Origin: an uncultured bacterium
GTDB lineage: Bacteria; Verrucomicrobiota; Kiritimatiellia; CAIKKV01; CAIYGI01
Reading direction: 5' to 3'
DNA: 42,052 nucleotides
NCBI GenBank assembly: GCA_903925685.1
Contig: CAIYGI010000213.1
Coordinates: 1 to 42,052, forward strand
The translations under genes were made by a program, and so were the position numbers. The number at the start of each line of letters is the position of its first letter. Within the stretch, counting starts at the first letter, position 1. The notes below the pieces were generated by a model. The model was not told where the DNA came from and made no database searches. It saw only the letters and a program-made list of their open reading frames with translations. Positions 1,681-40,149 of the stretch are shown here, piece after piece.

Positions 1681-3473
1681 TCAGGGTTGACACCCTGCCG
1701 ACGGCAGGGACGACCGCATCGAGCGGCCGTAGCGGCACAGCGAACGTCAGCGGGCGGGAGGCGGATGGCGGGGTGGAGATCGCGCAGGAAGTTGAAGAGT
1801 TCCTGCCGCGACGCGGGCTGGTCGAAGGGATGCATGGCGGTGACCGAGACGTAGGCCCAGCGCGAGGCGCGGTTGTGCAGCAGGCGGTCCGCTGCCATCC
1901 AGACGAGACGCCGCCAATGGGATGCGGTCTCGCGGTCGCGACCGGCGAACCAGTAGGCAAAGCCGATGCGATTGGCCCCGCCGGAGGCGTGGGCTTCGAT
2001 CACCATCAGATCGAGCGGCGCGCGCCCCGCCAGCGGCGCCTGTTCCGCGTGGGCGCGGTCGATTACAAAGCCCTGTGCCGGCAGGCATTGCTGCGGACGG
2101 TGGATGCTGCGCTGATCCTCGCCGCTGAAGACCGCCGTGACCAGATAGGAGCGCCCCTCGAAAGCCGTGTAAACCTTCTTCAGGATTGTCGTGTCCCTGG
2201 GCAGGATGTTGCGTTCCCCGACCGATGTCTCCGCCAGCGCGCCGCCGCAAACCGGACAAACGGCGCTGCCGTTAAGCGACGCTACGGTGAAACTCCTCAG
2301 GCACTGCTCATTCTGGCAATAGAGCAGGTCGTCGCCTTCAAAATCTCCAATGCGTGCCGGCAGCCGGTCGCGCAAGCCGCAGGAGGTTTCCAGCGCCACC
2401 GGCGGCGCGCATGAGGTCCAGATGGCGAGCCCGGCCAGCAGCAGGGGCGGCAGCAGACGAGAAAGATAATAGGAGGTCGGAAGTCTGAGGTCTGAGGTCC
2501 GAGGTCCGAGGTCGGAAGGAGGCAAACCGTCATCCGTATTTTTGGACTTGCCGGCCAGACGGTTCAGCCAGCCGGCAAGAACGAAGGTCAGGCTCAGCGC
2601 CACGCCGAAAAAAACGTAGCTGGAGTAATCGTGGTAGAAGCCCGTGGCGCGCTCCTGGCCGAAAAAGCGGGCGACAAGGGCGATGCTGACGATGCGGACC
2701 ACATTGCCTGCGATGGCCAGCGGCAAGGCGGCGGCGACCAGCAGCCAGCGCGACCATGTTCCGCGCACAAAGAACCAGGCGTAGGCGGCGCTGAGCGCCA
2801 CCAGCGGGAGCAGCGAGTGCAGACCGCTGCACGGATCGGCGACATCCAGGTGAAAACCGCCGCCGGCCAGGGAGTGGATCGCGGTGCCGCTGCGGACGGC
2901 GGCGATGCCGATGCCATTGAGCGTGAAGGTGGCCAGGGTGGTGGCGATGATCCGCAGCGGGAAGGTCAGCGAGTCGAGGAAACTGTAGGGGATGCAGAAA
3001 AGCAGATAAAGGGCGGGGAACAATGTCTGCCGCGCCACGCCCCAACCCCAAAAGACGAGGGGCACACTCCACAGCAGCAACAGCAGCGAGAGCAGCGTGA
3101 GGCGCGTTTGCTGGCCGCGCACGCCAAGCCAATAGAGCCCGAGTGCGACCGTGAAGGCCGCCAGTCCGCGCAGGTCCGGGTTCTTGGGCAGCGCGCGCAG
3201 GACGCCGCGCATGGTCCAAAGCGCGTAGAGGCTGACCAGCGGGATCAGCCAGGCATGCGAGAGATCGCCGGTTACGCTGCCCCAGCGGGCGACCATCCAG
3301 AGCACGGCCGAATGGCCCCTGACCGCCACCTCCTCGGCATTGCCATGGAGACCGTAGAGGAACCAAGCCATGGCGGCGATGGCCGCCAGACCGGCGGCCG
3401 TCCACCAGCCGGAATGCCGCTGCCCGGCGGCGCCTACGCCAGTCGTCGGGTTCTGGTGGTTCATGTGGCACAT
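1641..3473 (-). CDS. Exosortase fused to an EpsI-type (DUF3485-like) C-terminal domain
   Basis: 610 aa; exosortase catalytic landmarks DPCSGLHSL (Cys), NVVRI (Arg), YHDYSSY (His) in a multi-TM domain; C-terminal EpsI-like half (AVFSGEDQRSIHRPQQCLPAQGF). Confidence 0.88.
   Translation of the reverse strand: MCHMNHQNPTTGVGAAGQRHSGWWTAAGLAAIAAMAWFLYGLHGNAEEVAVRGHSAVLWMVARWGSVTGDLSHAWLIPLVSLYALWTMRGVLRALPKNPDLRGLAAFTVALGLYWLGVRGQQTRLTLLSLLLLLWSVPLVFWGWGVARQTLFPALYLLFCIPYSFLDSLTFPLRIIATTLATFTLNGIGIAAVRSGTAIHSLAGGGFHLDVADPCSGLHSLLPLVALSAAYAWFFVRGTWSRWLLVAAALPLAIAGNVVRIVSIALVARFFGQERATGFYHDYSSYVFFGVALSLTFVLAGWLNRLAGKSKNTDDGLPPSDLGPRTSDLRLPTSYYLSRLLPPLLLAGLAIWTSCAPPVALETSCGLRDRLPARIGDFEGDDLLYCQNEQCLRSFTVASLNGSAVCPVCGGALAETSVGERNILPRDTTILKKVYTAFEGRSYLVTAVFSGEDQRSIHRPQQCLPAQGFVIDRAHAEQAPLAGRAPLDLMVIEAHASGGANRIGFAYWFAGRDRETASHWRRLVWMAADRLLHNRASRWAYVSVTAMHPFDQPASRQELFNFLRDLHPAIRLPPADVRCAATAARCGRPCRRQGVNPECLSPFYNGSGNK
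1693..1709. repeat. 7-bp stem hairpin CCCTGCC-GAC-GGCAGGG
   Basis: Read directly; lies in the last ~20 codons of the exosortase ORF. Confidence 0.5.
2473..2514. repeat. Heptanucleotide tandem array, consensus GAGGTCN x6 (array 1)
   Basis: gaggtcg gaagtct gaggtct gaggtcc gaggtcc gaggtcg; in frame between the exosortase and EpsI-like domains. Confidence 0.9.
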
Positions 3474-3565
3474 TTTACCCGATGGCGGAGCGCATGGCTA
3501 GCGACTAGCCAGCAGGTTGCGGGGAATGCCGGGAGGGCCGATTGCGCTCGTTCTGACGGCCCTAA

Positions 3566-5071
3566 CTACGGGTGCGTGGTCACGGGGCGTTTCCAGAGCA
3601 CAAACCCTGGCAGTCGGCTTGCGGGACGATAGGCATGGGCCGCGAGATAGGCGGCCAGCGAACCGTACCCATCGAACACGTCAGGTTTGCAGACGAACAC
3701 CAGATCCGGCGGCGGCACCGAAGGGGCGATGGTCACGGACAGGTTGGCGGCATTGCAGATCGTGTTCGAGGGTTCGGCGTCCAGGGCGGTCAGCGACAGG
3801 CCGTAATAGGCGGCCGTGCGCGTGCTGGCGCTCCACCAGACACGGGCTCCGGCGCGCGCAGCGGCCGAGGCCAAACCGGCGCTGGCGCGGTTGTCTTCCT
3901 TGCGGTGGCGTGGCGCGATGCGAAGCAGCAGGCTTGAAATCAGCAGGAGTCCGATCAGCAACCCGGGCAGGGTGCCGCGCCACAGGGCCTTTCCACGCAG
4001 GCCGGCCGCCGCCCACATTGCCGCCGTGACGATGAAGGGGAGCAGCGGCGCCAAGTGACGGCCCCAGAACGGGAAACCCGCGATCCGCGCGGCAATGAAG
4101 AGGAACAACGCCGCCAGACCGGCGGCGACGGTCAGGGCCAATGCCAACCCGCGCGAGCCGCGGTGCGGCCTCGCGAGCGCCGCCAGGACGACGCCGAGCC
4201 AGGCCAGCGCGAGGGCGCCTAACGCCAGGGCGTAGGGACGCAGCAGTGCAACCACCAAAAGGCCGCCGCCGTCATGTGCCGCCGCCCGCAGATCGAGCCT
4301 GCCAGAACCCATTCCGGCGAAACCCAGCAACTCGTACGCGGCAAAGGCGACGTTGGAGGCGCCGACAGGCCAGAGGCGCGCGCCCCCATTGCCGGCGGCA
4401 AGCGTCTGTTGGTAATACCAAGCCAGCAAAAGGCACAAAATGCCGCCGAGGGCGAGCGCCGCCCAGGCTCCGGGCGCTGGCCACGTCCGGCGCCGCGCCA
4501 GCGCAACGAGCAGCACCAACCCCGCGGCCGCCAGAATGACGCCGCCCAACATGCTGGCGCCAAAGATCACGACAGCGGCAGGCGCCATGATCCATGCCCA
4601 GCGCGTGCTTTTCTCGCCCCCGGTAAGACATACCGCCATCCCGGCTACCAACCACGCCGCTGCCGCGATCTGCATAACGTACGGGCGCGCTTCGTTCATG
4701 TAGGCCCACAGGAACGGATGGACGGCCAACCCGAGTGGAAGCCAGGGCAGACGCAGGCGCCGGCCGGCCACGAATAACGCCAGCAGGGCCGCAGCGCCCC
4801 AGAGCAGGTTGATCGACCGCAGCGCCCATTCTCCGGCGCCGAAGGCTCTTCCCCAGACCCAGAACGCCGCCATGCAGAGCGGCATTTGCGTGGTCGAGTC
4901 GCTTCCCGAGCGTAACAGATCGAGCCAGTGCGAAAAATCCGGCTGCGCCGCGTAGCATGCGGTATCCGCCTCGTCCATCCACAGACTCTCGCCCGTGGGC
5001 ATAAAGGGCAGCAAGGCGACGGAGGCCAACAGCACCCAGACGGCGAGGCGGCGTGAAAGGCGTGCTTTCAT
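3566..5071 (-). CDS. Polytopic membrane glycosyltransferase (GT39/PMT-like)
   Basis: 501 aa, SLWMDEADTACYA motif in the first extracytoplasmic loop, many TM segments. Confidence 0.75.
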   Translation of the reverse strand: MKARLSRRLAVWVLLASVALLPFMPTGESLWMDEADTACYAAQPDFSHWLDLLRSGSDSTTQMPLCMAAFWVWGRAFGAGEWALRSINLLWGAAALLALFVAGRRLRLPWLPLGLAVHPFLWAYMNEARPYVMQIAAAAWLVAGMAVCLTGGEKSTRWAWIMAPAAVVIFGASMLGGVILAAAGLVLLVALARRRTWPAPGAWAALALGGILCLLLAWYYQQTLAAGNGGARLWPVGASNVAFAAYELLGFAGMGSGRLDLRAAAHDGGGLLVVALLRPYALALGALALAWLGVVLAALARPHRGSRGLALALTVAAGLAALFLFIAARIAGFPFWGRHLAPLLPFIVTAAMWAAAGLRGKALWRGTLPGLLIGLLLISSLLLRIAPRHRKEDNRASAGLASAAARAGARVWWSASTRTAAYYGLSLTALDAEPSNTICNAANLSVTIAPSVPPPDLVFVCKPDVFDGYGSLAAYLAAHAYRPASRLPGFVLWKRPVTTHP

Positions 5072-5233
5072 GAAACATCAGTGAAGATAGCCATCATGGC
5101 GCCGCTTATGCGCGAATCATAAATTTTCCACCCATGCGAGCGCAACGAAAAAGCTTCTTTTGCATGCTGGGTCGCCGGTCTTGACACTCCCCGCGGCCTT
5201 GGCGTACGTTCCTTTCAAGCGATAACCAAAAGC

Positions 5234-6277
5234 ATGAAAAAACGATTTCTTGTTACAGGCGGCGCGGGTTTTCTGGGGATCAATCTTGTCCGCAACCTTC
5301 TGGCGAAGGGACAGGAGGTAACATCCTTGGATGTTGCCCTTTTCGATTACCCGGACGTGTGCGGCCAGGCGCGCATTGTGCAGGGGGATATTCGACGGCC
5401 GGAGGATGTACGGACAGCGTTAAAAGATGTCGACATCGTCGTTCATGCGGCGGCGGTGCTGCCGCTGTACAAACCGGAGGATATCTTCTCGACCGATGTA
5501 GAAGGTACGCGCACTGTGCTTGAAGAGTCCGTTCGTCATGGGATTTCAAGAGTCATCCACATTTCCTCGACCGCGGTTTACGGAATTCCCGACCATCACC
5601 CGCTCCTGGAATCCGACAAGCTTCAGAAGGTTGGCCCCTACGGCGAAGCAAAAATCGCCGCCGAAAGGGTGTGCGAAGAATATCGCGCCAAGGGATTGAG
5701 CATCCCGATCGTCCGGCCGAAATCGTTCATTGGCCCGGAGCGGCTGGGCGTCTTTGCGTTGCTTTATGAATGGGCCAGCGATGGGCACAACTTCCCGATC
5801 CTCGGACGTGGCGACAATCCATATCAATATCTGGACGTCGAGGATTTGTGCGAGGCGATCTGGTTATGTTGCACGCTGGCGGACAAGACCGTCAACGACA
5901 CTTTCAATATTGGCGCGGAAGTTTACGGAACGCCACGAACAGACTTTCAGGCTGTTCTGGACGCGGCTGGTTTCGGCAAACGGGTGATTTCCATTCCCGA
6001 GGCGCCGGCAATCCTGTTGCTCAGGATACTCGAAAAGTTACGCCTTTCGCCCATCTACAAGTGGGTATACGAGACCGCCGGCAAAGAGTCCTTTGTCTCC
6101 ATCGAAAAGGCGAGGCAGCGTTTGGGCTTCGCGCCGAAGTATTCGAATGTGGACGCTCTGCTTAGAAACTACAATTGGTACCTGTCGCGCAAGGGAGAAT
6201 TGCGGCATAGCAAGGGAATATCGCATCGCGATCAATGGTCGCAAGGCGCGCTACGGCTCTGCAAAGCCTTGTTTTGA
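5234..6277 (+). CDS. NAD-dependent epimerase/dehydratase (extended SDR)
   Basis: N-terminal [19 protein letters not shown] Rossmann motif, STAVYG and [10 protein letters not shown] active-site region. Confidence 0.92.
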
Positions 6278-7438
6278 ACAAGGCAGCCCGGTTGTGCGGG
6301 CGGCGCTCTGAAGGTAGTCGTCGTACGACACCAAGGGGGAGCCTTGTTTCAGGCGCACGAAGAGGTTCTCGTAAAAAGCCGCGATCCAGTCCCAATGGTA
6401 ATATTTTTCGATGCGCGAAGCCGCCCTGGCGCGAAAGGCCTCGACGGCGGCCGGCTGGTCCACGAGCTGCTGCAGTTTGGCGGGCAGATCGGCCTCGGGA
6501 TCTTGCGCGTCGAAGTAGGCCCCGCAATCCGCCACGACCTCCGAATTGGCGGGCGAGTTGCGGACCAGCACGCAGTTGCCGAAACCCAGTTGATCCAGCA
6601 GGGCGGGCCGGGTGCCGTCCACGGCCGAGGGCTGGATGGCGGCGTAGGCGTGGCTGCTTAGCTGGGCATAGTCCCGGCCGAAAGCATAGCCCGTGAATAC
6701 GACCCGCTGGTCGGCGATTTTTTGCAGTGTTTTTTTGTAGGCGTCGGCGTACGGCGCGTCGCCGACCAGCACCAGTTTCATATCCGTGCGCAGCCGCAGG
6801 AACGACCGGATCAGCAGGCCGATGCAGTTCTCGGGCACGAAGCGGCCGACATAAAAGAGATATTGTCGCGGCTTTACGCCCCATTTTTCCAGCGCCTCCG
6901 TGCCCTCGTCGCGGGCGACATTGGCGCCGTAGGGTGCGAAAATCGTCGCGGCGCGGTAAAGTTCCGCATAGCGGCGCTGGATGACCTTGGCGTCGGCGAT
7001 CAGCGCCTGGGCACTGTGAACGGCGAGGCGTTCGCAGCCGCGTTGATAGGCGCGGGCGAAGCGGCCCCATTTTTCCCGCGCCCAATCCTGACCGTCCACG
7101 TTCAACAGCACGCGGGCGCCGGCCAGGCGCGGCAGCCAGACCAGCGGGCTGTTGCCGACAATGCAGTAGTAAACGATGTCATAACCCTGCGTCAGCGCAT
7201 GCAGCGTGGAGAGGAATGTATGGGAGAGTGTTTCCAGGTGCTTGGTGCGGATGGACGGCAGGGAGACGAGGCGCATGCCCCGGTAATGTCCACGTACGTC
7301 CTTGATGAAGTGTCGGCGGTTGTAGACCGTCACGTCATGGCCGCGCGCCGCCAGCCGCGCGCCCAACTGCTCGTAAAAGGTCTCGAACCCGCTGTAGCGC
7401 GCGGGTATGCCGCGGGAGCCGAGGAAGGCGATTTTCAC
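6251..7438 (-). CDS. DUF1972-type glycosyltransferase (GT4-like)
   Basis: [43 protein letters not shown]-terminal GT-B fold features. Confidence 0.9.
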
Positions 7439-8619
7439 CTTGTGGCGCCTCCATTATTCGTCCGGGCCGGCGCCGCCAGCAGTTGGCGGTAAGCTTCTTC
7501 CAGGGCCGCCGCGTAATGTTCGGGCAGGAAATCCCGTGCCCGCAGCCGCGCGGCTTCGCTCATGCGGCTCAGTTCGGCGGTTGACGTCCAGAGTTGACGC
7601 AACTTGAGCGACAGCGCGGCGACATCGCCCGGCGGCACCAAGGCTCCCTGCTCGCCGTCCGCGACCATTTCGGCCATGGCTCCGAGGTTGGAACAAACAA
7701 CCGGAATACCGCGCAACATGGCCTCGGCGGCCACCAGGCCAAAGGTTTCGAAACATACGCTCGGCATTACCAGCAGGCGCATGCCGGCATAGAAGGACTC
7801 CAGCGCCGGGCCGGACAACATGCCTTCGTAGCGGATCGAGGGGCTGTCCAACGGCGGACGATAGGACCGGTTGTCGCCGGCGAGCCTGAGCGGCAGTTCC
7901 GCGCGGGCCGCCGCCCGTACAAGCACATCGACGCCCTTTTCGGGCGCGAAGCGTCCCACGTAGCCGATGTAAGGGCGCTGGTCAGGCAAATATGCGCAGA
8001 CCGGCCCGCCTGGCGCGAGCAGTGGATTTCCCACGACGCGGATCTTTTCGGGGCGCACGCCCGCCTGCTGGATCAGCCAATCGCGGGCAAAGGCGGAGGG
8101 CGTGAGCAGGAGATCGACGGCCTGATAAAGACGGAAACCGCGCGCCACCAGATTGCGCAGCGCATATGCCAGACTCTGCATGCGGTTCCCCTGGCAATTA
8201 CGCACGGCGCAGCGCCATTCCCCGCCCTTCCCGCAATCCGTGCAGACCCGGCCGTCGCGCAAGTGCGTGCAAATGGGACAAGTCATGCGGTAGTCATGAC
8301 AGGTCAGCACCGTACGCACCCCCCGCCGCCTGCACAAGGGGAAAATCCAGGGCGAGATCAGGGGATAGATCTCGTGCACATGTACCAGATCGGGACAATC
8401 GCGCTCCAGCGCGGCGGCAAATTCGCGCAAGGCGGCTGGGGCATACAGTCCGGAGCCAAAGGCGCGCCAGCGTCCTGTCGCGCCGGACAAGCTCTTGCTG
8501 TCGCGCCAGAACGTATCCACCGTATGCCCGCGTTCGCGCAGCAACCCGACCGTGGCCGCCGCCACGACATCGGAACCGCCGCCGAGGCGGTGCTCGTTAT
8601 GAACCATCAATATATGCAC
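7435..8619 (-). CDS. Glycosyltransferase family 4
   Basis: The ORF track starts at 8817, but the protein logically starts at GTG 8619 (VHILMVHNEHRLGGGSDVVAAATVGLLRERGHTV), removing overlap with the next gene; YIGYVGRFAPEKGVDVLVRAA and CFETFGLVAAEAMLRGIPVV motifs. Confidence 0.9.
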   Translation of the reverse strand: MHILMVHNEHRLGGGSDVVAAATVGLLRERGHTVDTFWRDSKSLSGATGRWRAFGSGLYAPAALREFAAALERDCPDLVHVHEIYPLISPWIFPLCRRRGVRTVLTCHDYRMTCPICTHLRDGRVCTDCGKGGEWRCAVRNCQGNRMQSLAYALRNLVARGFRLYQAVDLLLTPSAFARDWLIQQAGVRPEKIRVVGNPLLAPGGPVCAYLPDQRPYIGYVGRFAPEKGVDVLVRAAARAELPLRLAGDNRSYRPPLDSPSIRYEGMLSGPALESFYAGMRLLVMPSVCFETFGLVAAEAMLRGIPVVCSNLGAMAEMVADGEQGALVPPGDVAALSLKLRQLWTSTAELSRMSEAARLRARDFLPEHYAAALEEAYRQLLAAPARTNNGGATR

Positions 8620-8654
8620 GGCGATTGTTCCGGTGGGGAACCGATGGCGGAGAA

Positions 8655-9365: not shown

Positions 9366-9367
9366 GG

Positions 9368-11854: not shown

Positions 11855-11855
11855 T

Positions 11856-18933: not shown

Positions 18934-20346
18934 TCACCCCGTCGCTGGCTGCCGGTGGACTTTGCCGCGGGCGAGGGAGGCAAAGATGCCCAGGAAACAC
19001 AGTCCGGCCGAGATGTGGAACGAAAGACGAACAACGGTCAAAAACTCCAGGTTTGGTCCGAACGACAAGCGGGCGCTGCCCAGGAAAACGGAGAGCAGCA
19101 TGGTTGCCAGCGCCAAACCGGCCATTTGCCCCGTCAAACGCATCGTGCTCACGATTCCAGCCGCCAGGCCGTACTGGCGCCGCTCGATGGACGACATGAT
19201 GGCGTTGGTGTTGGGCGAGGAAAAAAGCGCGAACCCCGCGCCGATGATCAGCAGCGCGACGATGATGGACGCGAGCGGCGTGGCCCCGTCGAGAAAACCC
19301 AGCAGCGTCAGACCCAGGGTCGTAAGTCCCATGCCGGCAGAGGAGAGCAAGGCCGGCTCGATGCGGTCCGAAAGCCGCCCGGCGGCGGGCGAGAGCAACC
19401 CCATGACCACCGGCTGCGCCATCAGCGCCAGCCCGGTCTGCAGCGGCGTCAAGCCCTTCAAATATTGCAGGTAAAGGCTCAGCAGGAAGGAAACCGTAAA
19501 GGCCGCGCTGTAGTTGATCAGGGCCGCCAGGTTGGAAAAGGCAAAGGTGGGATTATGGCGGAAGAGCCGCACGTCCAGCACCGGGTTGCCCTGGCGGGAC
19601 TCGAAAACCGCAAAAACGACCAGCAGGGCGATGCCCGCCGCGATCAGCGCGAAGGCGGAGAAGGCGGGCACGATCGACAAGCCGAACATGATGCAGACGA
19701 CCATGCCGCTGAAAAGCAGCGCCCCCGCGCTGTCGAAGCGCTCGCCGCGGGCTTCGTTCCATTCGCCGTTGAGGCGCGTCAGCAACAGCCCGAGCACCAG
19801 CAGCCCCAGCGGCACATTAACCCAGAAAAGACTGCGCCAGCCCAGGTAGCCGGTCAACAGGCCGCCGATGAACGGTCCGACCGACAGTCCCATGTAAACC
19901 GCCGCCACATTGTAGCCCAGCGCCTTGCCGCGCTTTTCGGGCGGAAAAACCGAGGTCAGAATCGCCACCCCGGTTCCGAAAACCAGCGCCGTGCCGAGTC
20001 CTTGCAGCGCGCGCGCGGCCAGCAGCATGGCGGTGTTGACCGCCAGCGCGCAGGCCAGGCTGCCCAGCGTGAAAAACGCCGTGCCCCAGGTCATGATGCG
20101 CTTGCGCCCGTGGATGTCCGCGAAGCGGCCGAAGGGAACCACGAACGCCGCCGAGGTCAGGATCATCGCCATGGCAACCCAGCCCAGCGCGGTCGCATGC
20201 ATGTCGAACTCGCGGCCAATGGCCGGCAGAGCCACATTGACGGACGAATTCAAAAGCGCCGTCTGAAAAGCGCTGATCATCGAAATGATCAGCGCCGCGC
20301 GGCAGGTGGCGCGATCGGCGGGAACGGGCGCGGAAATTGGAGACAT
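18934..20346 (-). CDS. MFS transporter, DHA2-like (EmrB/QacA type)
   Basis: ALLNSSVNVALPAIGREF, GRFADIHGRKRIMTWG, 14-TM pattern; start MSPISAPVPADRATCRAAL at 20346. Confidence 0.9.
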   Translation of the reverse strand: MSPISAPVPADRATCRAALIISMISAFQTALLNSSVNVALPAIGREFDMHATALGWVAMAMILTSAAFVVPFGRFADIHGRKRIMTWGTAFFTLGSLACALAVNTAMLLAARALQGLGTALVFGTGVAILTSVFPPEKRGKALGYNVAAVYMGLSVGPFIGGLLTGYLGWRSLFWVNVPLGLLVLGLLLTRLNGEWNEARGERFDSAGALLFSGMVVCIMFGLSIVPAFSAFALIAAGIALLVVFAVFESRQGNPVLDVRLFRHNPTFAFSNLAALINYSAAFTVSFLLSLYLQYLKGLTPLQTGLALMAQPVVMGLLSPAAGRLSDRIEPALLSSAGMGLTTLGLTLLGFLDGATPLASIIVALLIIGAGFALFSSPNTNAIMSSIERRQYGLAAGIVSTMRLTGQMAGLALATMLLSVFLGSARLSFGPNLEFLTVVRLSFHISAGLCFLGIFASLARGKVHRQPATG

Positions 20347-20363: not shown

Positions 20364-20384
20364 TGGAGGGTGGAAGGTGGAAGT
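20364..20384. repeat. Heptanucleotide array TGGAGGG TGGAAGG TGGAAGT (array 2) with degenerate TCAAAGT continuation
   Basis: Read directly; lies ~18 bp upstream of the MFS start codon. Confidence 0.65.
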
Positions 20385-20716
20385 TCAAAGTCAAAGCGTC
20401 TCAAACGGACTGCGCACACCGATGCCGGTATGCTTTGCCGTGCTAGACAAGCATCTTATGAACGCATCCAAGAACTAGAAGAGCACCGGTTGACGCGGTC
20501 CGACGATCGTGCTGCATTGTCTTACAGCCAAGGAGATCGAACCCATGACCGTTTGGTGTACTGGCTTTAGCCGTTTTTTCGCCCGCCGCCCCTATGTAAC
20601 TGACCCATTTCCCCCGACAGAAGAATGACTTTGACAAAGCCCGCATCTCCGTGCTTTGATTCAAGCAAATGACGATGGAATAATGTTTTTTTCACCAGGA
20701 TCGAGGCAAAAAACTG

Positions 20717-25569: not shown

Positions 25570-26928
25570 ATGAAAAGGTTGCTGTTAGACGAATTGATAC
25601 GCTGGAAAAGTCTTCCAGAACGAAAACCCTTGATCCTGAAGGGGGCGAGGCAGACCGGCAAGACGTGGCTATTAAAGGCGTTTGGCGAGGCGAATTTCCG
25701 ATGCACACACTATGTCAACTTCGAGAACGCGGCCCGATTCGCATCGCTTTTCACCGGCGGGTTGCAACCGCGGCAGATTCTGCCGCAACTTGCCCTGCTT
25801 CTGGACAAACCGATCGACACGGCGCACGACTTTATAATCTTCGATGAAGTTCAGCGCGTACCTGAAGCCTTGACCGCTCTCAAGTACTTCCGCGAGGAAC
25901 AGCCCGATCTCGCCGTCGCCGCCGCCGGTTCGCACATCGGCCTGACTGTGTCCGAGAGTGCGTTTCCGGTCGGTCAGGTCGACTTCCTGTCGCTCTTTCC
26001 TCTATCGTTCGCCGAGTTTCTTCTGGCGGTGCGTCCCGCGCTTGCCGGCTACCTGAACAACCGCGCCCCGGACGAACCGGTCTCCGAAGCGCTCCACGAC
26101 GAACTCATGCAACAACTTCGCATCTATACGGTTGTCGGAGGCATGCCCGAAGCCGTGAACGTCTGGCGTACGATGCCCAAGAGCAGCGTGGACCAGCTCG
26201 ACACGTTCCGCCGCGTCCGCGAGATCCACGCCGCCTTGGCGCAGAGTTATTCCTCCGATTTCTCCAAGCATGCGGGCAAGATCAACGCGACCGACATCGC
26301 CCGTCTCTTCGACGGCATACCGGCGCAGTTGGCGCGGACCGTCAACGGTTCGTTTATGCGCTATCGTTTCAAGGACGCGCTTCCCGGCAAGACGCGCTTC
26401 AGCGCCATCGTCGGCCCTCTGGACTGGCTGATCCGAACCGGACTGGCGCTGAAAGTTGCACAGGTCGAACGCCCTGAACCTCCACTGAAAGCCTATGCCT
26501 CCGAAAACCTCTTCAAACTCTACCTTCTGGACACCGGCCTCCTGGGCGCCATGGCGGGACTTACCCCGCGCGACCTGTTAGCACAGGACTTCGGAACGTA
26601 CAAAGGCTGGATCACCGAGAACTTCGTCGCGCAGGAATTGACGGCGGCGGGTTATGCGCCGCTCCATTTCTGGCGGGGAAAGGCATCCGAGGTCGATTTC
26701 CTGGTGGTCTCGCCCAAGGGCATTGTGCCTGTCGAGGTCAAGTCCGGCACAGTCACGCGATCCAAGAGTCTCGCGGCCTACATGGAGAAGTTCAGTCCCC
26801 CGCTCGCTGTCCGTTTGAGCGGACGCAACACGCCCCGCACGTCAAGCGCCATCCACGACCTTCCCCTTTATCTTGCGGGGCAACTGAACCGCCAACTCCC
26901 ATCTTTGGCAGAATACCGATCCGAATGA
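25570..26928 (+). CDS. AAA ATPase with DUF4143-type C-terminal domain
   Basis: Walker A LILKGARQTGKTWLLKAFG; FIIFDEVQRVPEALTALKYF; C-terminal WRGKASEVDFLVVSPKGIVPVEVKSG nuclease-like motif. Confidence 0.92.
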   Translation: MKRLLLDELIRWKSLPERKPLILKGARQTGKTWLLKAFGEANFRCTHYVNFENAARFASLFTGGLQPRQILPQLALLLDKPIDTAHDFIIFDEVQRVPEALTALKYFREEQPDLAVAAAGSHIGLTVSESAFPVGQVDFLSLFPLSFAEFLLAVRPALAGYLNNRAPDEPVSEALHDELMQQLRIYTVVGGMPEAVNVWRTMPKSSVDQLDTFRRVREIHAALAQSYSSDFSKHAGKINATDIARLFDGIPAQLARTVNGSFMRYRFKDALPGKTRFSAIVGPLDWLIRTGLALKVAQVERPEPPLKAYASENLFKLYLLDTGLLGAMAGLTPRDLLAQDFGTYKGWITENFVAQELTAAGYAPLHFWRGKASEVDFLVVSPKGIVPVEVKSGTVTRSKSLAAYMEKFSPPLAVRLSGRNTPRTSSAIHDLPLYLAGQLNRQLPSLAEYRSE

Positions 26929-27091
26929 GCGGGTCTGGATCGATGCCGACAAGATCAGTGAGAAGACCTTGAGGAAGCGGGGCGTGAAGTACGAAGCCAT
27001 CGCCTGGCGAGAGCGCCCTACCAAGTATTCGTATTTCCCTGCCACCTGCCACCTACCACCTAGCACCTACCACCTAACACCTGCACCTTAA
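26888..27091 (+). pseudogene. Orphan C-terminal coding fragment (TANSHLWQNTDPNERVWIDADKISEKTLRKRGVKYEAIAWRERPTKYSYF...)
   Basis: Coding-like stretch with no start, +1-overlapping the ATPase 3' end; its tail reads through heptad array 3. Confidence 0.4.
27041..27088. repeat. Heptanucleotide array, consensus NNCACCT x6-7 (array 3)
   Basis: gccacct gccacct accacct agcacct accacct aacacct gcacct; abuts the queC stop codon. Confidence 0.85.
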
Positions 27092-27756: not shown

Positions 27757-27870
27757 TAAAGGTGTTCGGGTTGCCAACGCTAACGTTTTCGCCTATCGTT
27801 TCTTTTGTCGCACATGCTGGTATCATAGACTTTTCGTGAGATTACACCGATGGCATGGATGGAAACAAGC

Positions 27871-27898
27871 ACTGAACACCGAACACTGAACACCGAAC
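27871..27898. repeat. Heptanucleotide array ACTGAAC/ACCGAAC x4 (array 4)
   Basis: actgaac accgaac actgaac accgaac, ending 12 nt before the GT4 start codon. Confidence 0.85.
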
Positions 27899-27910
27899 AC
27901 TCTTCCGAAA

Positions 27911-28981
27911 ATGCCTGCGATCAACCAGATTGTGGCGGGATTTACCCGCGGCGACGCGATCAGCCAGGAGGCGCTGGCCCTGCAACGGCTCTTCGCCTCG
28001 TGGGGTTGCGGCGGCGAGATTTTTTGCGAGCGGCGGCGGGTGCTGCCGGAACTGCGCGGCGCGGTGCGCGATCTGGACGAGGCGCAAGCCGTTTGCGGCC
28101 CGGATTCGGTCGCCTTGCTGCATCTTTCCATCGGCTCGCCCTGCAATGCCGCCTTTGCAAAGCTGGCGGCGCGCAAGGCAATCCTCTACCATAACATGAC
28201 GCCGTCGGCCTATTTCAGGGCCGTGCAGCCGGCTACGGCGTCGCTGCTCGAACTGGGACGCCGGCAACTGGCGGCGCTGGCGGGCGCGGCGGAGGTGAAC
28301 ATGGCCGTGAGCCGCTACAATGCCGGCGAACTGGAGGCGGCGGGTTGCCGCGGGGTGGGCGTGGTGCCGCTGGTGGTGGACTGGACGCGCTACGACGTGC
28401 CGCCGGACCGGGCGCTGCTGCGCGAACTCGACGATGGGCGCGTCAATATTCTGTTCGTGGGCCGTGGCGCGCCGAACAAGCGCATTGACGATCTGCTGCA
28501 GGCCGTGGCGACGCTGCGGCACGGCATCGAACCGCGGGCGCGGCTGATTCACGTTGGTTCCTACGCCGGCGCCGAACGTTACCGCATGGTGCTGGAGGCG
28601 CGGGCGCGCGAATTGGGCATGCGCGACAGCCTTTTTCTCGGCGCCGTCCCGCAGGCGTCGCTGAACGCCTGCTATCGCGCGGCGCAGGTTTTCCTCTGCA
28701 TGAGCGAACATGAGGGCTTTTGCATTCCGCTGCTGGAAGCGATGCGTTTCGACCTGCCCGTGGCGGCGCGCGCCTGCGCGGCGGTGCCGGAGACGCTTGA
28801 CGGCGCGGGCGTGCTTTTCGCGGAGGCCGACTATCCCCTGATCGCCGAAACGCTGGCGCGCCTGGCGCAGCCCGGCGAATTGCGCGACGGCGTGCTGGCG
28901 GCGCAGCGCGCGCGCCTGGCGCGCTACCAGGCCCGCGACCTGGGCGCGGAACTGCGCAGGCTGATGGCGCCGATTTTGTGA
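27911..28981 (+). CDS. Glycosyltransferase family 4
   Basis: VNILFVGRGAPNKRIDDLLQAVATL; FLCMSEHEGFCIPLLEAMRFDLPVAARACAAVPETL. Confidence 0.9.
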   Translation: MPAINQIVAGFTRGDAISQEALALQRLFASWGCGGEIFCERRRVLPELRGAVRDLDEAQAVCGPDSVALLHLSIGSPCNAAFAKLAARKAILYHNMTPSAYFRAVQPATASLLELGRRQLAALAGAAEVNMAVSRYNAGELEAAGCRGVGVVPLVVDWTRYDVPPDRALLRELDDGRVNILFVGRGAPNKRIDDLLQAVATLRHGIEPRARLIHVGSYAGAERYRMVLEARARELGMRDSLFLGAVPQASLNACYRAAQVFLCMSEHEGFCIPLLEAMRFDLPVAARACAAVPETLDGAGVLFAEADYPLIAETLARLAQPGELRDGVLAAQRARLARYQARDLGAELRRLMAPIL

Positions 28982-30085: not shown

Positions 30086-30347
30086 GTCGGAATGATGCCA
30101 ATTCCCGAGCTGAAATCCAAGCCGGAAGGTGAACCCCGAAACCTCGCCTAACGTCGTTCCGGCGTTTCATCCACGAGTATTTCGCCCTGCGCCCACGCGG
30201 CGCCAGGGGCCTGCCGCCAGAAAATGTTCCTGTCAATCTATAACGTTCCTTGGGCGACGGACGCCGTCGCCGTGTTGGCATGCGGATGATTGATCCCCAG
30301 CCAGCTTGGAACCGGATATCATCGCTGAACGTTCGGCAACGGCTGGA

Positions 30348-32437: not shown

Positions 32438-32450
32438 GCTGGGCCACCTT

Positions 32451-33536
32451 TCATGACTGGCAGTCGAGGATGATCTTGATCGCCCCGGTCTTTTCCTTGT
32501 TGCAGGCCACGGAAAAGGCCTCCAGCGCCTTTGAGAGCGGGAAGCGGTGGCTGATGAGCGGATCCACCAGAATGGCGTTTTGGGCCACCAGTTCGATCAC
32601 GCGGGGGAAGTCGGTGTACATGGCGTTGGAGGAGGTGCGGATGGCGCGTTCGCCGCTCAGCAGGAGGGCTGGTATGCGAAGCTCCTCCTCCTTGTTGGCC
32701 ATCAACACCAGCATGCCGCCCTTCTTCAGAATTTTTAAGGACGCAATGATACTGTCATTGGAGCCCACGGTGTTGAATACGATGTTCACGCCCTGGCGGC
32801 TGGTCTTTTCCATGACCAGGTCGTGCAGGCTGGCCTTGGAGTCATGCAGGTTCAGGGGGAAGTCGACGCCGATCTTCCGGGCCGCCTCGATGTTCTCGCG
32901 GGCGATGTCGGTGATGAAGGTCTGTCTGGCGCCATAGAGGCGGGAAAACTGGGCGATCAGCAGGCCGATGGGGCCGGCGCCGAGGATGGCGACGGTATCG
33001 AGCAGGGTGGGGCGGCCGACCTCGGTGGCGTGCAGGGCGGCGATGAGTGGGTCGAAAAATGTGGCCTGGTCGTCGGTGACGGATGCCGGCAGTTCATAGA
33101 CCTGGCTGGCAAAGGCCGGACAGAACTCGGCCATGCCGCCTGGGTAGAACTCCATCTGGCCCCACCCCTGGCCATGCCCCAGGTGCTTGGTGAAGTCGCA
33201 GAGGTTCTCTTTGCCGCTGCGGCAGTAGGCGCAACGGCCGCAGGTGAGGAAGGTGTTCACGCCCACGCGTTTGCCGACCAGGTTGGCGTTATCCGGATCA
33301 AATGCTTCGACCACGGTGCCGACAAACTCATGCCCCAGAATGATGTTCGGCGGGTTGGGCGCCTCCTGGCCGAGTGTCTGTTTGGCCCAGGGGTTTTCGC
33401 CGTGGAAGTAGCGGATGTCGCTGCCGCAGATGCCGCAGCGATGCACGCGGATCAGGACCTGGCCGGAACTCAGTTTGGGACGCGGCACGTCCATCACTTC
33501 CAGTTTTTCCGGCGCACGCAGGACCAGGGCTTTCAT
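32451..33536 (-). CDS. Zinc-dependent alcohol dehydrogenase
   Basis: Start MKALVLRAPEKLEVMDVPRPKLSSGQVLIRVHRCGICGSDIRYFHG at 33536; GHEFVGTVVEAF; CGRCAYCRSGKENLC. Confidence 0.93.
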   Translation of the reverse strand: MKALVLRAPEKLEVMDVPRPKLSSGQVLIRVHRCGICGSDIRYFHGENPWAKQTLGQEAPNPPNIILGHEFVGTVVEAFDPDNANLVGKRVGVNTFLTCGRCAYCRSGKENLCDFTKHLGHGQGWGQMEFYPGGMAEFCPAFASQVYELPASVTDDQATFFDPLIAALHATEVGRPTLLDTVAILGAGPIGLLIAQFSRLYGARQTFITDIARENIEAARKIGVDFPLNLHDSKASLHDLVMEKTSRQGVNIVFNTVGSNDSIIASLKILKKGGMLVLMANKEEELRIPALLLSGERAIRTSSNAMYTDFPRVIELVAQNAILVDPLISHRFPLSKALEAFSVACNKEKTGAIKIILDCQS

Positions 33537-33577
33537 GGTGGCCAAGTCTTTCGCATTAAATTGACAGGGAATCGCTT

Positions 33578-34366
33578 TCAGGACACCACTGGCGCGGACC
33601 CGCAGGAACCGGTGGAAAACGTCATATCGACCGTGCGTGGCGGAATGGCCTCGAACGCCTTGGTGTTCGGGCAATTGTCCGCCTTGATCAAGCGCGGGGT
33701 CGCCCAGCGGGCGGCATTGGCCAGGATGCGCTGGATCTCCGGGTTGTAATAGATCGGGTAGGTCTCGTGGCCTGGGCGGAAATAGAAGACCCTGCCATGC
33801 CCGCGCCGCCAGCAGCAACCGCTGCGGAACACCTCGCCGCCTTCGAACCAGGAGATGAAGACGAGTTCGTCGGGCGTGGGGATGTCGAAGCGTTCTCCAT
33901 ACATCTCCGTGTTGGGCAACTCGACGTATTCACCCAGCCCCTCGGCGATCGGGTGCGACGGCTCGATGACCCACAGGCGCTCCTTCTCCGCGACTTCGCG
34001 CCACTTGAGCGAGCAGTTCGTGCCCATCAGCGCGCGAAAAATTTTCGAGAAGTGGCCGGAGTGCAGCACGATCAGGCCCATCCCTTCGAGCACGCGCTTC
34101 TGGACCCGCTGGACGATCGCGTCCTGCACGTCGGCATGCGCCATATGTCCCCACCAGGTCAGCACGTCGGTCTGATCGAGCACGGCCTCGGTCAACCCAT
34201 GCTCCGGCTCGTCCAGCGTCGCCGTGCGCACGGTGAACCCGCCCGCGGCCTCCAGCCCCTTGGCGATGACCGTGTGCATGCCCAAGGGGTAAACCTTGCG
34301 GACCGTGGCATTCGTTTTTTCATGGCGGCCTTCATTCCAGACGGTGACCCGGATCGGCTTGGACAT
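33578..34366 (-). CDS. ThuA domain-containing protein
   Basis: [13 protein letters not shown]..., [63 protein letters not shown]. Confidence 0.9.
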
Positions 34367-34572
34367 ATCTTATCTCCTTTGGTGAACGGCCGGCACGGTC
34401 CTGTGCCCGCTGCCCGTTAAGTTAAGCCACAAATGGTCTTTGAAGCAAGAGAGTATCCATAAAATCCCTCTAGCTACAATAAAAGGCGGGCTGGTTCGTT
34501 TAACCTACTATCCGGACATCTACGATGTCGATGGACAAAGGAGCGAACAACGTTCAGGAAAGGATGGTTAGG

Positions 34573-34944
34573 ATGAAACGATTGGGAATGGTTTTGCTGG
34601 GAGTAGTCGCCGCCGCCTCGCTGGCTTCGTCGGTTTTGGCCGAAGATGCCCAACCCAAGAAGGGCGATCACGAGGGACGGTTCATGGAGAGATTCAAAAA
34701 GGCCGACACGAATGGCGATGGAAAACTGTCGCTGGACGAGTTCAAGGCCGCCTTCCCCAAGGCCAATGACAAGAAGTTCGCGAAAGCCGACACCAATAAC
34801 GACGGTTTTCTGACGCCGGACGAACTCAAGGCGGCGCGTCAGGACGGTCCTGGCCGGGCGCGCGACAAGAAGCCGACCGACAAACCGGCCGACAAACCGG
34901 CCGACAAACCCGCCGACAAACCCGCCGACAAACCGGCCCAATAA
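34573..34944 (+). CDS. Secreted EF-hand protein with DKPA repeat tail
   Basis: Signal peptide MKRLGMVLLGVVAAASLASSVLA; EF-hand loops DTNGDGKLSLDE and DTNNDGFLTPDE; (DKPA)n C-terminus. Confidence 0.85.
   Translation: MKRLGMVLLGVVAAASLASSVLAEDAQPKKGDHEGRFMERFKKADTNGDGKLSLDEFKAAFPKANDKKFAKADTNNDGFLTPDELKAARQDGPGRARDKKPTDKPADKPADKPADKPADKPAQ
34874..34940 (+). repeat. 12-bp-period tandem repeat encoding DKPA
   Basis: gacaaaccggccgacaaaccggccgacaaacccgcc... Confidence 0.85.
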
Positions 34945-35061
34945 AAGCCGGCAGCGACGGAAACGACGGCCCTGTCAGCGAACCTGACGGGGCCGCTTTG
35001 TTTGAACCCAGCCGAATTCCCGGCCTTGACCCGGCCGCCACTGTTTTGCCACACTCTCTCC

Positions 35062-35259
35062 ATGAAAAACATACTTCGCTTGATCACGGCGGGCGCGTTC
35101 TGCGCGGCCGCCGGCTGTGTGCATGTGAAAATGGATCCCATCCACATCACGATGGACGTGAACGTGAAGGTGGACAAGGAACTTGATTCGTTCTTCGGCG
35201 ATCTGGACGCGAAGACCGCGCCCGGCAACGCCCCCGTATCCAAATCCACCGAGAAATGA
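35062..35259 (+). CDS. ynbE: YnbE-like lipoprotein
   Basis: Lipobox AAGC; KMDPIHITMDVNVKVDKELDSFF; immediately followed by YdbL- and YdbH-like genes. Confidence 0.75.
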   Translation: MKNILRLITAGAFCAAAGCVHVKMDPIHITMDVNVKVDKELDSFFGDLDAKTAPGNAPVSKSTEK

Positions 35260-35267
35260 AGGCGACA

Positions 35268-35627
35268 ATGAAACGATATCGTGTCATGACGATGCTGGTC
35301 CTGATGCTGGCTGGCGCGCTCCTGGCGGTAGTTCCGGCGGCGCGCGCCGCCGATACCAAGGCGGAGCTGAAGGCTCGAATGGCGCAGCGTTTGCCGCAGT
35401 TGAATGCGCTCAAGGCGCGGGGCGTTGTCAGCGAAAACGACGCGGGACTGCTCACGGCGGCGGGGACGGCCACGGACGCGGACAAGGCCGTGGTTGAAAC
35501 CGAAAACAAGGACCGGCGGGCGGTTTACGCCGCCATCGCCGCCAAGAACGGCGCCACGCCGGAAGCGGTCGGCGCCCGCCGCGCCAGAAAGATTGCGGAG
35601 TCCGCGGTCTCAGGCAACAAGAAGTGA
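35268..35627 (+). CDS. ydbL: YdbL-like (DUF1318) periplasmic protein
   Basis: Signal peptide; GVVSENDAGLLTA...AVVETENKDRRAVYAAIAAKNGATPEAVGARRARKI. Confidence 0.82.
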   Translation: MKRYRVMTMLVLMLAGALLAVVPAARAADTKAELKARMAQRLPQLNALKARGVVSENDAGLLTAAGTATDADKAVVETENKDRRAVYAAIAAKNGATPEAVGARRARKIAESAVSGNKK

Positions 35628-38047
35628 AGCGTCCGCGGACATGGCTCCGCGTCTGCGTCGGACTGCTGCTGGCGGCGGGCATCGGCCTGGCCTTGCTTTG
35701 GATGGCCGCGCCACGACTGGCCGAGCGCTTGATCCAGCGAAAACTCGTCCGCCTCGGGGTGCCCGTCGAGAACCTGCATCTGCGCTCGGTCACGCCCTGG
35801 ATGCTTGAACTTGAACCGCTGCGCCTGGGCGCGGACCCCGATGCGCCAACCCTGGGCGCGTTGCGCGTGACCTACGTTCCACGTGAACTTTTACGCGCCA
35901 AACTGCGCGCGGTTGTGCTCGACGGACTGCAGTTCGTGATCCGCCGCTCCAAGTCCGGCGCCTGGGAGGTTGCCGGCGCGGACAGGATTCTCCTGAGGCG
36001 CGCGGATTCCTCAACCGCGGCGCAAAGCCGCTCCTTCAAACAGATCATGGACTTGATCCCGGATCGCGTCGCCGTGCAGGCGATTACCGTGATCGCGGAA
36101 ACGGAAAACGGAAGATCGGCGTTTCAGATGGAGTTGAACGCCGAACGGCGCGATGACAAATTCGATTTGCGCGTGACCGCCAGCGGGGACGGCAAAAAGG
36201 CGGCGTTTGCGACGGTTGTGGAGGCGAAGCCGGAGCTGCTTTCATGCATTGGGAAACTCAGTTCCTTGAATATCCGGGGGCTGGAATTGGGTGAAATACC
36301 GTTGCAGATCACGGCGGACCGTAAAGCCATGCGTGTCGAGGCCTCGGTAAAGCCGCCGGGCAGTGCGCTGGCCGCAAAGCTCGCGTTATCTGTAAGTCTT
36401 GAGAGCAAGACTTTCACAGGTTCCGCCACGTTGCCGCCCGCGCTGGTGGCGGAAAGCGATCCGGCGCTGGCGCCTTTCCTGCCGGCATCGCTTAAGGGCG
36501 CGCTCTTCTCCGGCACGCTGGGCGGCCGGGCGGACGCGGTCTGGATAGCCGGGAGTGCGCCGAAGTGCATGGCGGAGGCGACGCTGGCCGACGGCAAGTT
36601 CGCGAAAGATGGCTGGACGGCAGGGATAACCAACGCCGTGGCGCGCGCAGGCGTTGCGCCTGGGGAGCAAGACCGTGGCAACGCCTATTTCCTGGAGCTG
36701 GAGTTGCGCGGAATTGCCGCCTGCCTGCCGGACGGCAGTCTGCTGAATGCGGCGCTGATTCAATGCCCCCTGCGCGGTTCAGCCAAAGCAGGATTCGAGG
36801 CGCAGTGCACGCTCCGTAATGCCAGTTTGCGGATTCCGCGTGCGGAACTGGTGGCCGAAGGGCTGGATGCGGATCTGGCCTTTGCCTGGTCGAAAGAGGA
36901 TGGTCTGCGGAGCGTGCTGTTCCCGCGGAAAACGGAGCCAGGCCGGATTCGTTCGGTGAATATCCGGGGTCTGGAATTGGGCGAGATACCGTTGCAGATC
37001 GCGGCGGACGGGAAAGATCTGCGAGTCGAGGCCGCGATAAAACCGCCGGGCAGCGCGCTGGCCGCAACGCTCGCGCTATCCGTGAATTTTGAGAGCAAGG
37101 CCTTCGCGGGCTCCGCCACGCTGCCGCCAGCGCTGGTGGCGGAAAGCGATCCGGCGCTGGCGCCTTTCCTGCCGGCGTCGCTTAAGGGCGCGCGCTTCTC
37201 CGGCACGGTGGGCGGGCGTGCGGAGGCAACCTGGAAATCCGGCGCTGAACCGAAGGGCGCGGCGGAGGTGACGCTGGCCGGCGGTAAATTTGCGACGGCG
37301 GACGGCAAGTTCGACGTGCAGGGATTGGAATGCGGGCTGAAACTGGAAAGTCTGGCGCCCCTGCGCAGCTTCCCGTCTCAAAAGCTGAAACTTGCCCTGG
37401 CGCATGCGGCCGGCACGACGCTGACCGATGGAAAATTCACCTTCCGGCTCGATCCGCCCGACATCATCTTCGTTGAGCACGGCAGTTTCGTCTGGTGCGG
37501 CGGCAAACTCAGCTGCGCGGCCGCGCGGATCACCGGCGGCAAGCCGGACGGCATGGTGATCTTGCGCGCGGAACAGGTGGACGCCGGCCAATTGACGGGG
37601 ATGATGAAGAAGGACTTCGGCGGGCATGCCGAAGGCTGGCTCACGGGGCGCGTGCCGCTGATCTTCGGGAAGGACGGCGTGCGGCTCGGGAATGTGCATC
37701 TGATCGGCGACCCGGAAAAGCCCGGCATCCTCCAACTCGACCCGGAAAAATGGCCCGGCAACCAGGTGGACACACTCGGGGTCAGCCCCGCCGTCAAGAA
37801 AGCCATGAAGCAGACACTCCGGAACATGAGTCTGACCCTGCTGCGCCTCGACGCGCTGCCAAAGACCGACAAGACTTCGACCCGCCTGTGCCTGCGCATT
37901 GCCGGCACGCCGCGGGAGGACACCGACCTGCCGCCTGTAGATCTCACGCTCAATCTGAACATCGAGGATCGACAAAACCTGTTGTGGAATCTTATGAACC
38001 AATCCAACCAAGAGAAAAAACCGGGGGCGGACGCCGACTCCTGGTAA
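35624..38047 (+). CDS. ydbH: YdbH-like AsmA/TamB-class envelope protein
   Basis: 807 aa; single N-terminal TM, long beta-rich repeats, C-terminal domain typical of YdbH ([27 protein letters not shown]); operonic with YnbE/YdbL. Confidence 0.82.
36268..36600 (+). repeat. Internal duplication, copy 1 (offset 690 bp)
   Basis: [14 protein letters not shown]...[27 protein letters not shown] nearly identical at DNA level to 36958-37290. Confidence 0.9.
36958..37290 (+). repeat. Internal duplication, copy 2
   Basis: See copy 1. Confidence 0.9.
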
Positions 38048-38058
38048 AGGGAACTACA

Positions 38059-40149
38059 ATGCCTCCCGCATCTTCAACTCCGCGTCCGAAAATCCTCATT
38101 GTCGACGACGAAAAGAGCATCCGTCTGACCCTCAGCGCCTTCCTGCAGGACGAGGGGTACGAAGTGGCGACCGCCGAAGACGCGGACCGGGCGTGCGCGC
38201 TGCTCGCGAACGGCGCCTGGGATGTCGTCGTGACTGACATCGTCCTGCCCGGCGTATCCGGCGTGGAATTGCTGAAGGCGATTCGTGCCGCGGCCCCGGA
38301 TGTGCAGGTGATCATGATGACCGGCGAGCCCACCGTGGAGACCGCGACGGAAGCCGTCCGGGCCGGCGCGCGCGATTACCTTTCCAAGCCCGTCGGCAAG
38401 GACGCGATCGTGCGCTCCGTGACGACGGCGGTGCAGATGAAGCAACTTGCGGACGATAAACGCCGCCTGGAGGAAGAAAACCGCAGGCACCAGGCAAATC
38501 TGGAACGGTTGGTTGCGGAACGCACGGGGGAATTGCGCCTTTCCCGCGACGAATTGGAGCAGCGCGTTATCGAACGTACGAACGATCTGAACCTGGCGAA
38601 ACAGGCGGCGGAGGCGGCGAACCGCGCCAAGTCGGACTTTTTGGCCAACATGAGTCATGAATTGCGCACGCCGTTGGGAGCGATCATAGGGTTCTCGCAA
38701 TTACTCGAGGAAAAGCTTTACGGCGCTCTGAACCCCAAGCAGGAGGAGTACGTCAAGGACATCCTCGATAGCGGGCGGCATTTGCTTTCCCTGATCAACG
38801 ACATCCTCGATCTGGCGAAGATCGAGGCGGGCAGGATGGATCTGGAACCGTCATTCTTCCCCATCGCGAAGCTAATCGAAGAGAGCCTGATCATGGTGAA
38901 GGAAAAGTGCGCCAAACACGGGATTCGCCTGACAACGGATATCGCGGACGAGGTCAAAGCCCTGTCGATATTGGCGGATGAGCGCAAGCTGAAGCAGGTC
39001 TTGTTCAACCTGCTCTCCAATGCGTCCAAGTTTACGCCCGACGGCGGCGCGATCACGGTCAGCGTGAATCTGGCGGATTTCCGACCTCGGACTTCGGACC
39101 TCGGACCTCGGACCTCCGCCCTCCTCATCTCCGTCTCCGACACCGGAATCGGAATCTCCAAGGAGCATCAGGCAAAGATCTTCGATGAGTTTTACCAGGT
39201 GGCCAGCGTCGCCAAAGGCAAGTCGCCAGGCACGGGACTGGGGCTGTCCCTGGTCAAGCGCATGGTGGAGCGGCACGGCGGCCGGGTCTGGGTGGAAAGC
39301 GACGGGGAAGGCCAGGGCAGCACCTTCCGGTTCATCATCCCGCTCTCCCCGGCGCAAGGCCTGGTGCAGGCCATTCAGTCGTATCTGACCGCGAGCGACA
39401 AACAACCGAGCGTGCTTACCCTGCTTCTTTGTGCCCTTGATGCAGATGCCGAAGGCAAGGTTATTCCGGCCGCGGGCCATGGGCATACTGTCGCGACAGA
39501 GGAGGTGTGGACGGCCCTGGCCGGAAAAGTCGGAAGCCTCGGTTATCGATCGGCGTTTTCCGGAAACGAATTCGCCGTCATGGCGAAACTCGGCGAGTGC
39601 GCCGATACTCAATCGCAGGTTAAGCTCCGAAGACTCCTCAAGGATGTGCTTTTTAAGATGGCGCCATACGCCGTGGCCGGTTTCTCCTGCGGCGTGGCGA
39701 CAGGGACGGCCGGGACGCTCGGCGCGGTTGAATTTCTCGATGCCGCGCGCGGCGCGAAAGTGCATGAGCGCGACAGAATTGCCGCCCAACGCGTCATGAT
39801 CGTCGACGACGAAATCCAGATTCGAACGCTGCTGCGGAGGAAATTCGTGCAACTTGGGTTGGCGAATATTGACGAGGCTGAAGGAGGGGAAGAGCTGTTC
39901 CGGCTGCTTCAGCGCCGGATCCCCAATCTGATCGTGCTGGACATCTCCATGCCGGGCATGAACGGGTACGAAGTCATCGGAAGACTCAAGAGCTGCGCCG
40001 ATACGGCGGATATCCCCATTTTGATTTTGTCGGGTCTCGACGTGGACAGCGTGGAACTGCGCAAGAGAAGTCCCACCACGGCGCTGCTTGTGCTCGAGAA
40101 ACCGGTGGCTAGCGAGACTCTTAACAACCATGTATATTATCTATTGTAA
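38059..40149 (+). CDS. Hybrid sensor histidine kinase (REC-HisKA-HATPase-[GGDEF-like]-REC)
   Basis: Start [22 protein letters not shown] at 38059; [24 protein letters not shown]-box; [39 protein letters not shown]-terminal [14 protein letters not shown]. Confidence 0.93.
39082..39116. repeat. Heptanucleotide array, consensus GGACCTC x5 (array 5)
   Basis: cgacctc ggacttc ggacctc ggacctc ggacctc; in frame inside the HATPase_c domain. Confidence 0.9.

Follow-up and report, generated by a model that had tools for sequence, protein, structure and literature searches.

Oriented heptanucleotide arrays at the gene borders of an uncultured Kiritimatiellia bacterium and its relatives

Simple sequence repeats with heptameric units are over-represented in bacteria (Mrazek 2007, as cited in PMC4692102), and a proposal of 2007, as rendered in the same citing paper, holds that slippage within the footprint of the DNA polymerase favours heptamers; the bacterial preference for seven-base repeats is a question standing since that year. 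It is raised again by the window studied here (42,052 nucleotides of contig C213, from an assembly of 4.12 Mb in 347 contigs of an uncultured bacterium of the class Kiritimatiellia), for which a sequence-only reading had described five dispersed arrays with a period of seven, two of them encoding the same peptide in unrelated proteins. Genes of this bacterium resemble several named PVC loci, with matches of 52-57% to Kiritimatiellae MAGs found repeatedly among them, and an affiliation with the PVC group is probable on this basis. What are these arrays, and how do they arise and change?

Arrays in the window and throughout the genome

The window was scanned for period 7, with dinucleotide shuffles as controls, and four arrays are confirmed to lie far above chance. 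They are found at positions 2472-2513 (minus strand, six units, GACCTCN on the coding strand, score 23), 27038-27082 (plus strand, NNCACCT, score 26; delimited below as 27038-27088), 27870-27900 (plus strand, CACYGAA, as TGAACAC or CGAACAC, score 15) and 39083-39124 (plus strand, six GACCTCN units, score 23); the shuffled windows contain 0.01 arrays per window at a score of at least 12 and none at a score of at least 15. The fifth array of the earlier description, at 20364-20383 (plus strand, three TGGARGG units, score 10, with 0.1 expected per window by shuffling), is weak taken alone, yet its word AAGGTGG is common genome-wide; a distance of 18 bp separates it from the start of the gene at 18934-20346 (minus strand), and its G-rich strand is directed away from this gene. 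The coordinates given earlier are correct to a few bases. When periods from 2 to 30 are considered, only period 7 (with its multiples 14 and 21) and one 12-bp repeat stand out in the window.

The sites are tolerant ones, in agreement with the sequence-only reading. The array at 2472-2513 lies in frame in a gene (1641-3473, minus strand) that fuses an exosortase (PF09721) with an EpsI-like protein (PF11984), where it encodes residues 321-334 of the linker, and the array at 39083-39124 lies, also in frame, in a hairpin of the HATPase_c domain of a response-regulator/histidine-kinase hybrid (38059-40149, plus strand). The array at 27038-27088 abuts the stop codon of queC (PF06508, 27088-27777, minus strand), at the left end of this gene and with a C-rich top strand, and the array at 27870-27900 is found 10 nt upstream of the start codon of a glycosyltransferase gene (27911-28981). 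A single GGTGTTCG unit is present at the start of queC (27757-27770, plus strand). The 20-mer GACCTCGGACCTCGGACCTC, described as shared by the two coding arrays, is indeed found at 2494-2513 (minus strand) and 39097-39116 (plus strand), and among the 24 mismatch-free genome matches of the pattern GACCTCNGACCTCNGACCTC, G occupies both variable positions only at these two sites.

The arrays of the window are samples of a genome-wide class comprising hundreds of arrays at gene borders. Allowing up to two mismatches, GACCTCNGACCTCNGACCTC has 125 matches in the genome and the reversed pattern has none. Genome-wide counts are based on 0.40 Mb of DNA of this genome, partly chosen for having matches. 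In the contigs picked without regard to matches (122 kb, of which about 112 kb is readable, as very short contigs read as N), 12 arrays of period 7 and 13 of period 8 are found, 10 of the latter on one contig, and the other periods from 4 to 13 give zero to two arrays each; the match-biased sample (293 kb) contains 62 arrays of period 7. The density of heptamer arrays is about 100 per Mb, octamer arrays (for example CACCGATT) being second to them, and more than 80% of the arrays (61 of 74 by the first gene calling, made with a home-made gene finder) are intergenic and near gene ends. The heptamer words include GAGGTCN, AAGGTGG, AGGTGGT, TGTTAGG, GGTGTTC, GATGAAC, CAGAAGT, GTGAGTG and AACAGTG, and arrays of CTTCTGA are also present. 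A chance origin is ruled out by the shuffle controls together with these pattern counts; the frequency of period 7 is far above expectation, and the proposed single dispersed heptamer family stands. The octamer arrays, and the orientation rule and inverted pairing described below, are absent from the earlier description.

Spread, inheritance and change of the arrays

The class of arrays is patchy within the phylum and is found in many phyla. The word GACCTC is frequent in the genome of the window and in G001, G007, G022, G024 and G056, and many genomes of the class are without it; GAACAC is frequent in the genome of the window, G001, G012, G014 and G024, and CCACCNT is nearly confined to the genome of the window and G001, G012 and G029 having a few matches as well. 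The matches listed from an exact scan of named genomes include Verrucomicrobiota, Lentisphaerae, Kiritimatiellota, Planctomycetota, Acidobacteria, Chloroflexi, Bacteroidota, Elusimicrobia and Proteobacteria, and among the matches listed are the isolates Thalassolituus marinus and Alcanivorax hongdengensis. An artefact of metagenome assembly is unlikely, because these arrays are also found in the genomes of the sister species and of distant bacteria, isolates among them.

Inheritance can be followed in the sister species G001, which belongs to the same genus and has about 90% DNA identity at the compared sites. When 24 array sites were mapped in G001 by their flanking genes and classed by reading the alignments, 14 were found to carry an array, three to be cleanly empty and seven to be of unclear state. 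The shared sites often differ, either in copy number (9 versus 3, 4 versus 2 and 16 versus 7 units, for example, between relatives) or by having another word in the same register. The array at the stop end of queC is present in both species, its word CACCTAC being replaced by CACCGAA in G001 in the same register, with identical gene-proximal units; at the start of queC about four GGTGTTCG units are present in G001 versus the one in the window, and queC of G001 is flanked by inverted arrays (GAACACC...GGTGTTC). In place of the array at 27870-27900, G001 has about 390 bp of other DNA. Clean presence/absence is seen at L036 4763 for an element of 120 bp whose arms are AAGGTGG...CCACCTT, and at L036 13820 for an array of 102 bp flanked by direct repeats of 8 bp. 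The earlier suggestion of active dispersal finds partial support and is not supported for the main process, as most sites that could be classed are common to both species and the kinase array is inherited, and the suggestion of slippage agrees with the observed changes of copy number and of words in register. Mostly inherited sites with changed unit numbers and words swapped in place are as slippage or unequal exchange would produce them.

Breaks in gene content coincide with array-rich spacers. An AAA_14/DUF4143 ATPase gene (25570-26928) adjoins queC, and other DNA is found at that place in G001; the sequence at L181 1671-2993, which opens with a P-loop-like motif, looks similar to this gene.

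Both coding arrays consist of six units (42 bp), and in neither of them is the variable base ever T, as read from the sequence; a T at this position would generate a TGA codon in every third unit. The exosortase array is located between the Exosortase_EpsH (residues 40-303) and DUF3485 (residues 366-570) regions. Relatives of the order mostly match as two adjacent separate halves (query residues 1-306 and 340-590, approximately). With regard to heptamer expansion as a candidate cause of the fusion, G006 and G016 have the exosortase-EpsI protein as a single ORF without the array of 2472-2513, and G001 is without this gene. The kinase array falls between an ITVSV segment and the next segment of HATPase_c; in the G001 orthologue, whose protein is 85% identical, it occurs in frame at the same place and with the same length of six units, these being partly different. 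The peptide SDLGPRTS, first noticed in the sequence-only reading, is present in the exosortase and kinase proteins alike, and it calls for no special explanation, since the same word is read in one of three frames. Arrays can thus enter proteins at linkers with the frame kept, and inside genes they would be tolerated only if they are in frame, contain no stop codon in that frame and lie in a linker or loop.

Strand polarity of the arrays

The G-rich strand of an array is directed outward from the flanking gene, and this holds for either direction of the gene. In the genome of the window, the ratio of G-rich to C-rich arrays is 19:4 at right gene ends and 8:32 at left gene ends (Fisher p = 2.6e-6), and the polarity is the same for genes of the plus and minus strands. 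The corresponding ratios are 9:0 and 3:11 in G001 and, with crude gene calls, 34:17 and 17:33 in a pooled multi-phylum set, in which the bias at gene ends persists in weaker form. With the G-rich strand directed outward, two arrays in one spacer read as a G-arm followed by a C-arm (G-first), and this is observed for all 16 pairs of opposite arrays within 250 bp in the genome of the window and G001 (16:0) and for all opposite pairs in the contigs that the GACCTC scan retrieved from other taxa (14:0). Among the matches listed for four genomes, the pairs are G-first by 31:0, in a list that was compiled by hand from the listed GACCTC, GAACAC and CCACCNT matches and overlaps the 16:0 set. In many pairs the words of the two arms differ, their mean similarity being 4.9 of 7 versus 4.3 for random pairs.

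Neither order is preferred in the ordinary hairpins of this DNA (17:15, 5:6, 14:17 and 116:113), and a general polarity of hairpins is therefore rejected as the cause. The same holds for a background strand skew of spacers, because the skew is absent from spacer DNA without arrays and is opposite on the 5' side.

The polarity is consistent within lineages and widespread, and it is not universal. When GARRTC/GAYYTC pairs were considered in 388 genomes of the phylum, the distinct sites, tallied by hand from the listed places, comprise 19 G-first sites in 13 genomes and five C-first sites. Four of the five C-first sites belong to two genomes of a single family, f31 (G123 C171 and C174, and G228 C152), in which the rule is reversed, and the fifth is shared by two related genomes as a conserved sequence that is apparently coding. 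G007 is perhaps also reversed (0:4 and 2:1). A universal chemical cause is unlikely, because f31 is reversed and G007 perhaps too. A C-first inverted pair, GAACATC...GTTCGATG, is seen in G007 (L304 447-607), 144-174 bp from genes. An orientation rule that takes no account of gene direction, spans several phyla, is missing from ordinary hairpins and is flipped in one family excludes the simple accounts by G-quadruplex structure, selection of hairpins or a single word.

Possible origin and relation to known repeats

It is probable that the hepta- and octanucleotide arrays at gene borders start from single heptamers or are inherited, change by whole units, are homogenised in place and owe their strand polarity to the DNA level. 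An array would grow and shrink by whole units, and its units may be converted in place to a different word via slippage or unequal exchange, the same processes by which its birth and growth would be explained; arrays would be tolerated mainly between genes. The polarity would arise at array birth or extension, most simply by extension at the 3' ends facing the spacer during the repair of intergenic gaps or breaks. An origin at the DNA level is suggested because the direction of transcription is irrelevant, the arms often differ in word and spacers between convergent genes comply. We regard the arrays largely as by-products of this process, with selection confining them to gene borders.

Selection at the RNA level could also generate the rule if both orientations arise and only A/C-rich leaders and G-rich trailers are kept, avoiding false ribosome sites or serving protein/S1 binding. 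The gene-centred rule corresponds exactly to C-rich leaders and G-rich trailers, the array at 27870-27900 lies directly ahead of a start codon, and the TAACTGA repeats of Beggiatoaceae also directly precede start codons (PMC4679880). In the genome of the window, however, the bias at stop-codon sides (29:5) is no weaker than that at start-codon sides (22:7), and G-first pairs are found between convergent genes as well (L087, L122, L146 and L329), which makes this explanation unlikely; with modest confidence, a strand-asymmetric origin at spacer-facing 3' ends is preferred over it. Polar binding sites, by which multiple copies, usually as inverted pairs, would dock a DNA-binding protein of global action whose pitch is 7 bp, are less likely still. 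Such sites have been proposed for a global regulator of Geobacter metallireducens (PMC2700814), the CTTCTGA arrays of the genome of the window recall them, and the polarity is constant within a lineage and flipped in f31; but dozens of different words occur in one genome, and the word at one site differs between sister species.

The two clean presence/absence cases at L036 would fit hairpin or REP/MITE-like mobile elements with heptamer arrays as arms, moved by a RAYT/Y1 transposase, and Y1_Tnp genes do exist (two in the genome of the window and three in G001). Against such elements, which are very unlikely to be the explanation, the two arms frequently differ in word, unpaired arrays are common, and Y1_Tnp counts do not track array counts (G045 has 62 copies; G031 has none, yet has 38 GACCTC matches), so that this transposase is rejected as the driver. 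The conserved palindrome of a REP/REPIN mobilised by RAYT is not seen, as the words differ between arms and sites. G-quadruplex or i-motif elements are scarcely credible: GGGNATC heptamers of Xanthomonas form G-quadruplexes in vitro (PMC4692102) and the AGGTGG and GGAGGTC words are G-rich, but GATGAAC, CAGAAGT, AACAGTG and TGAACAC are without G runs, and the polarity is kept in words without GGG or GGNGG (17:7 and 7:28, p = 1.4e-4), which rejects quadruplexes as its cause for such words; words without any GG show a trend only (8:5 and 3:9, p = 0.11). Equally hard to credit are phase-variable contingency loci, in which the loss or gain of units would switch the frame. Seven is not a multiple of three and the kinase and exosortase arrays are in frame, but the unit number of the kinase array is unchanged between the two species, and most arrays are intergenic, without a tie to surface genes.

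The DNA-level proposal has two main weaknesses, the reversed family f31 and the lack of a candidate enzyme. A more specific form of it is a long shot: a lineage-consistent process might add units of 7-8 nt to spacer-facing 3' ends, akin to telomere-like healing of intergenic breaks, and leave head-to-head G-rich/C-rich scars in many phyla, with words set locally and without a fixed template.

Heptamer arrays as such are already known, and their polarity is known for G-quadruplex-forming heptamers. The GGGNATC/GGGGAYT heptamers of Xanthomonas and Nostoc have the same outward G-rich geometry relative to the neighbouring ORF as the arrays of the window's genome and G001, with function unassigned there (Rehm et al. 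2015, PMC4692102). Their units bear GGG and can form G-quadruplexes, whereas GGG is present in none of the four strong arrays of the window; here, there are also many words per genome, some without G runs, octamers and in-register word replacement, the lineages are mostly uncultured, and ordinary hairpins serve as an explicit control. In Geobacter metallireducens, tandem MTYCTGA heptamers or GTTGCTYN octamers occur in opposite-strand pairs (PMC2700814). Both sets are tandem 7- or 8-mers mostly in such pairs, and MTYCTGA fits the CTTCTGA arrays, but they are described there as fixed regulator sites and the words vary from site to site here; the likeness is that of paired tandem geometry alone. 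The TAACTGA repeat of marine Beggiatoaceae is a single word in two to six copies on the start-codon side only, with related heptamers rarely repeated (MacGregor 2015, PMC4679880); both systems are dispersed, intergenic, oriented heptamer arrays close to start codons, but the sites of the window's genome are at both gene ends, and TAACTGA is absent from the words found in the sampled arrays of this genome and G001. With the STRR heptamers of cyanobacteria, the arrays have unit length, intergenic location and multiple words in common, and the relation is one of kind: exact 7-bp units are over-represented and mainly intergenic, and their copy number differs between relatives. New here are the many words per genome, the polarity in words unlikely to form G-quadruplexes, the in-register word replacement, the hairpin control, the occurrence in several phyla and the family with reversed polarity. 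The orientation rule makes the heptamer question answerable with complete genomes and mutation-accumulation lines.

Other repeats were noticed alongside the arrays. G001 contains over 30 partial copies (73-88% identity), some of them inverted, of a dispersed element of about 150 bp (30118-30285) that is separate from the heptamer arrays, and a 64-bp repeat (20549-20612) has five copies there at 86-87% identity. Contig C90 of the window's genome (L181) carries several copies of a palindromic dispersed element within 7 kb (1322-1455, 5302-5445, 5505-5640 and 6843-6982), built from octamer-like arms of CGCAGAG, a GTTAAGCAACCCATC loop and three direct repeats of ATTCGTG and adjoining strings of the words TTGGATATTGGACATTGG and TTCAACGTTCGATGTTGACTGTTCG. 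A 12-bp tandem repeat of CCGGCCGACAAA (5.5 copies) is found at 34873-34938, with ORFs on both strands.
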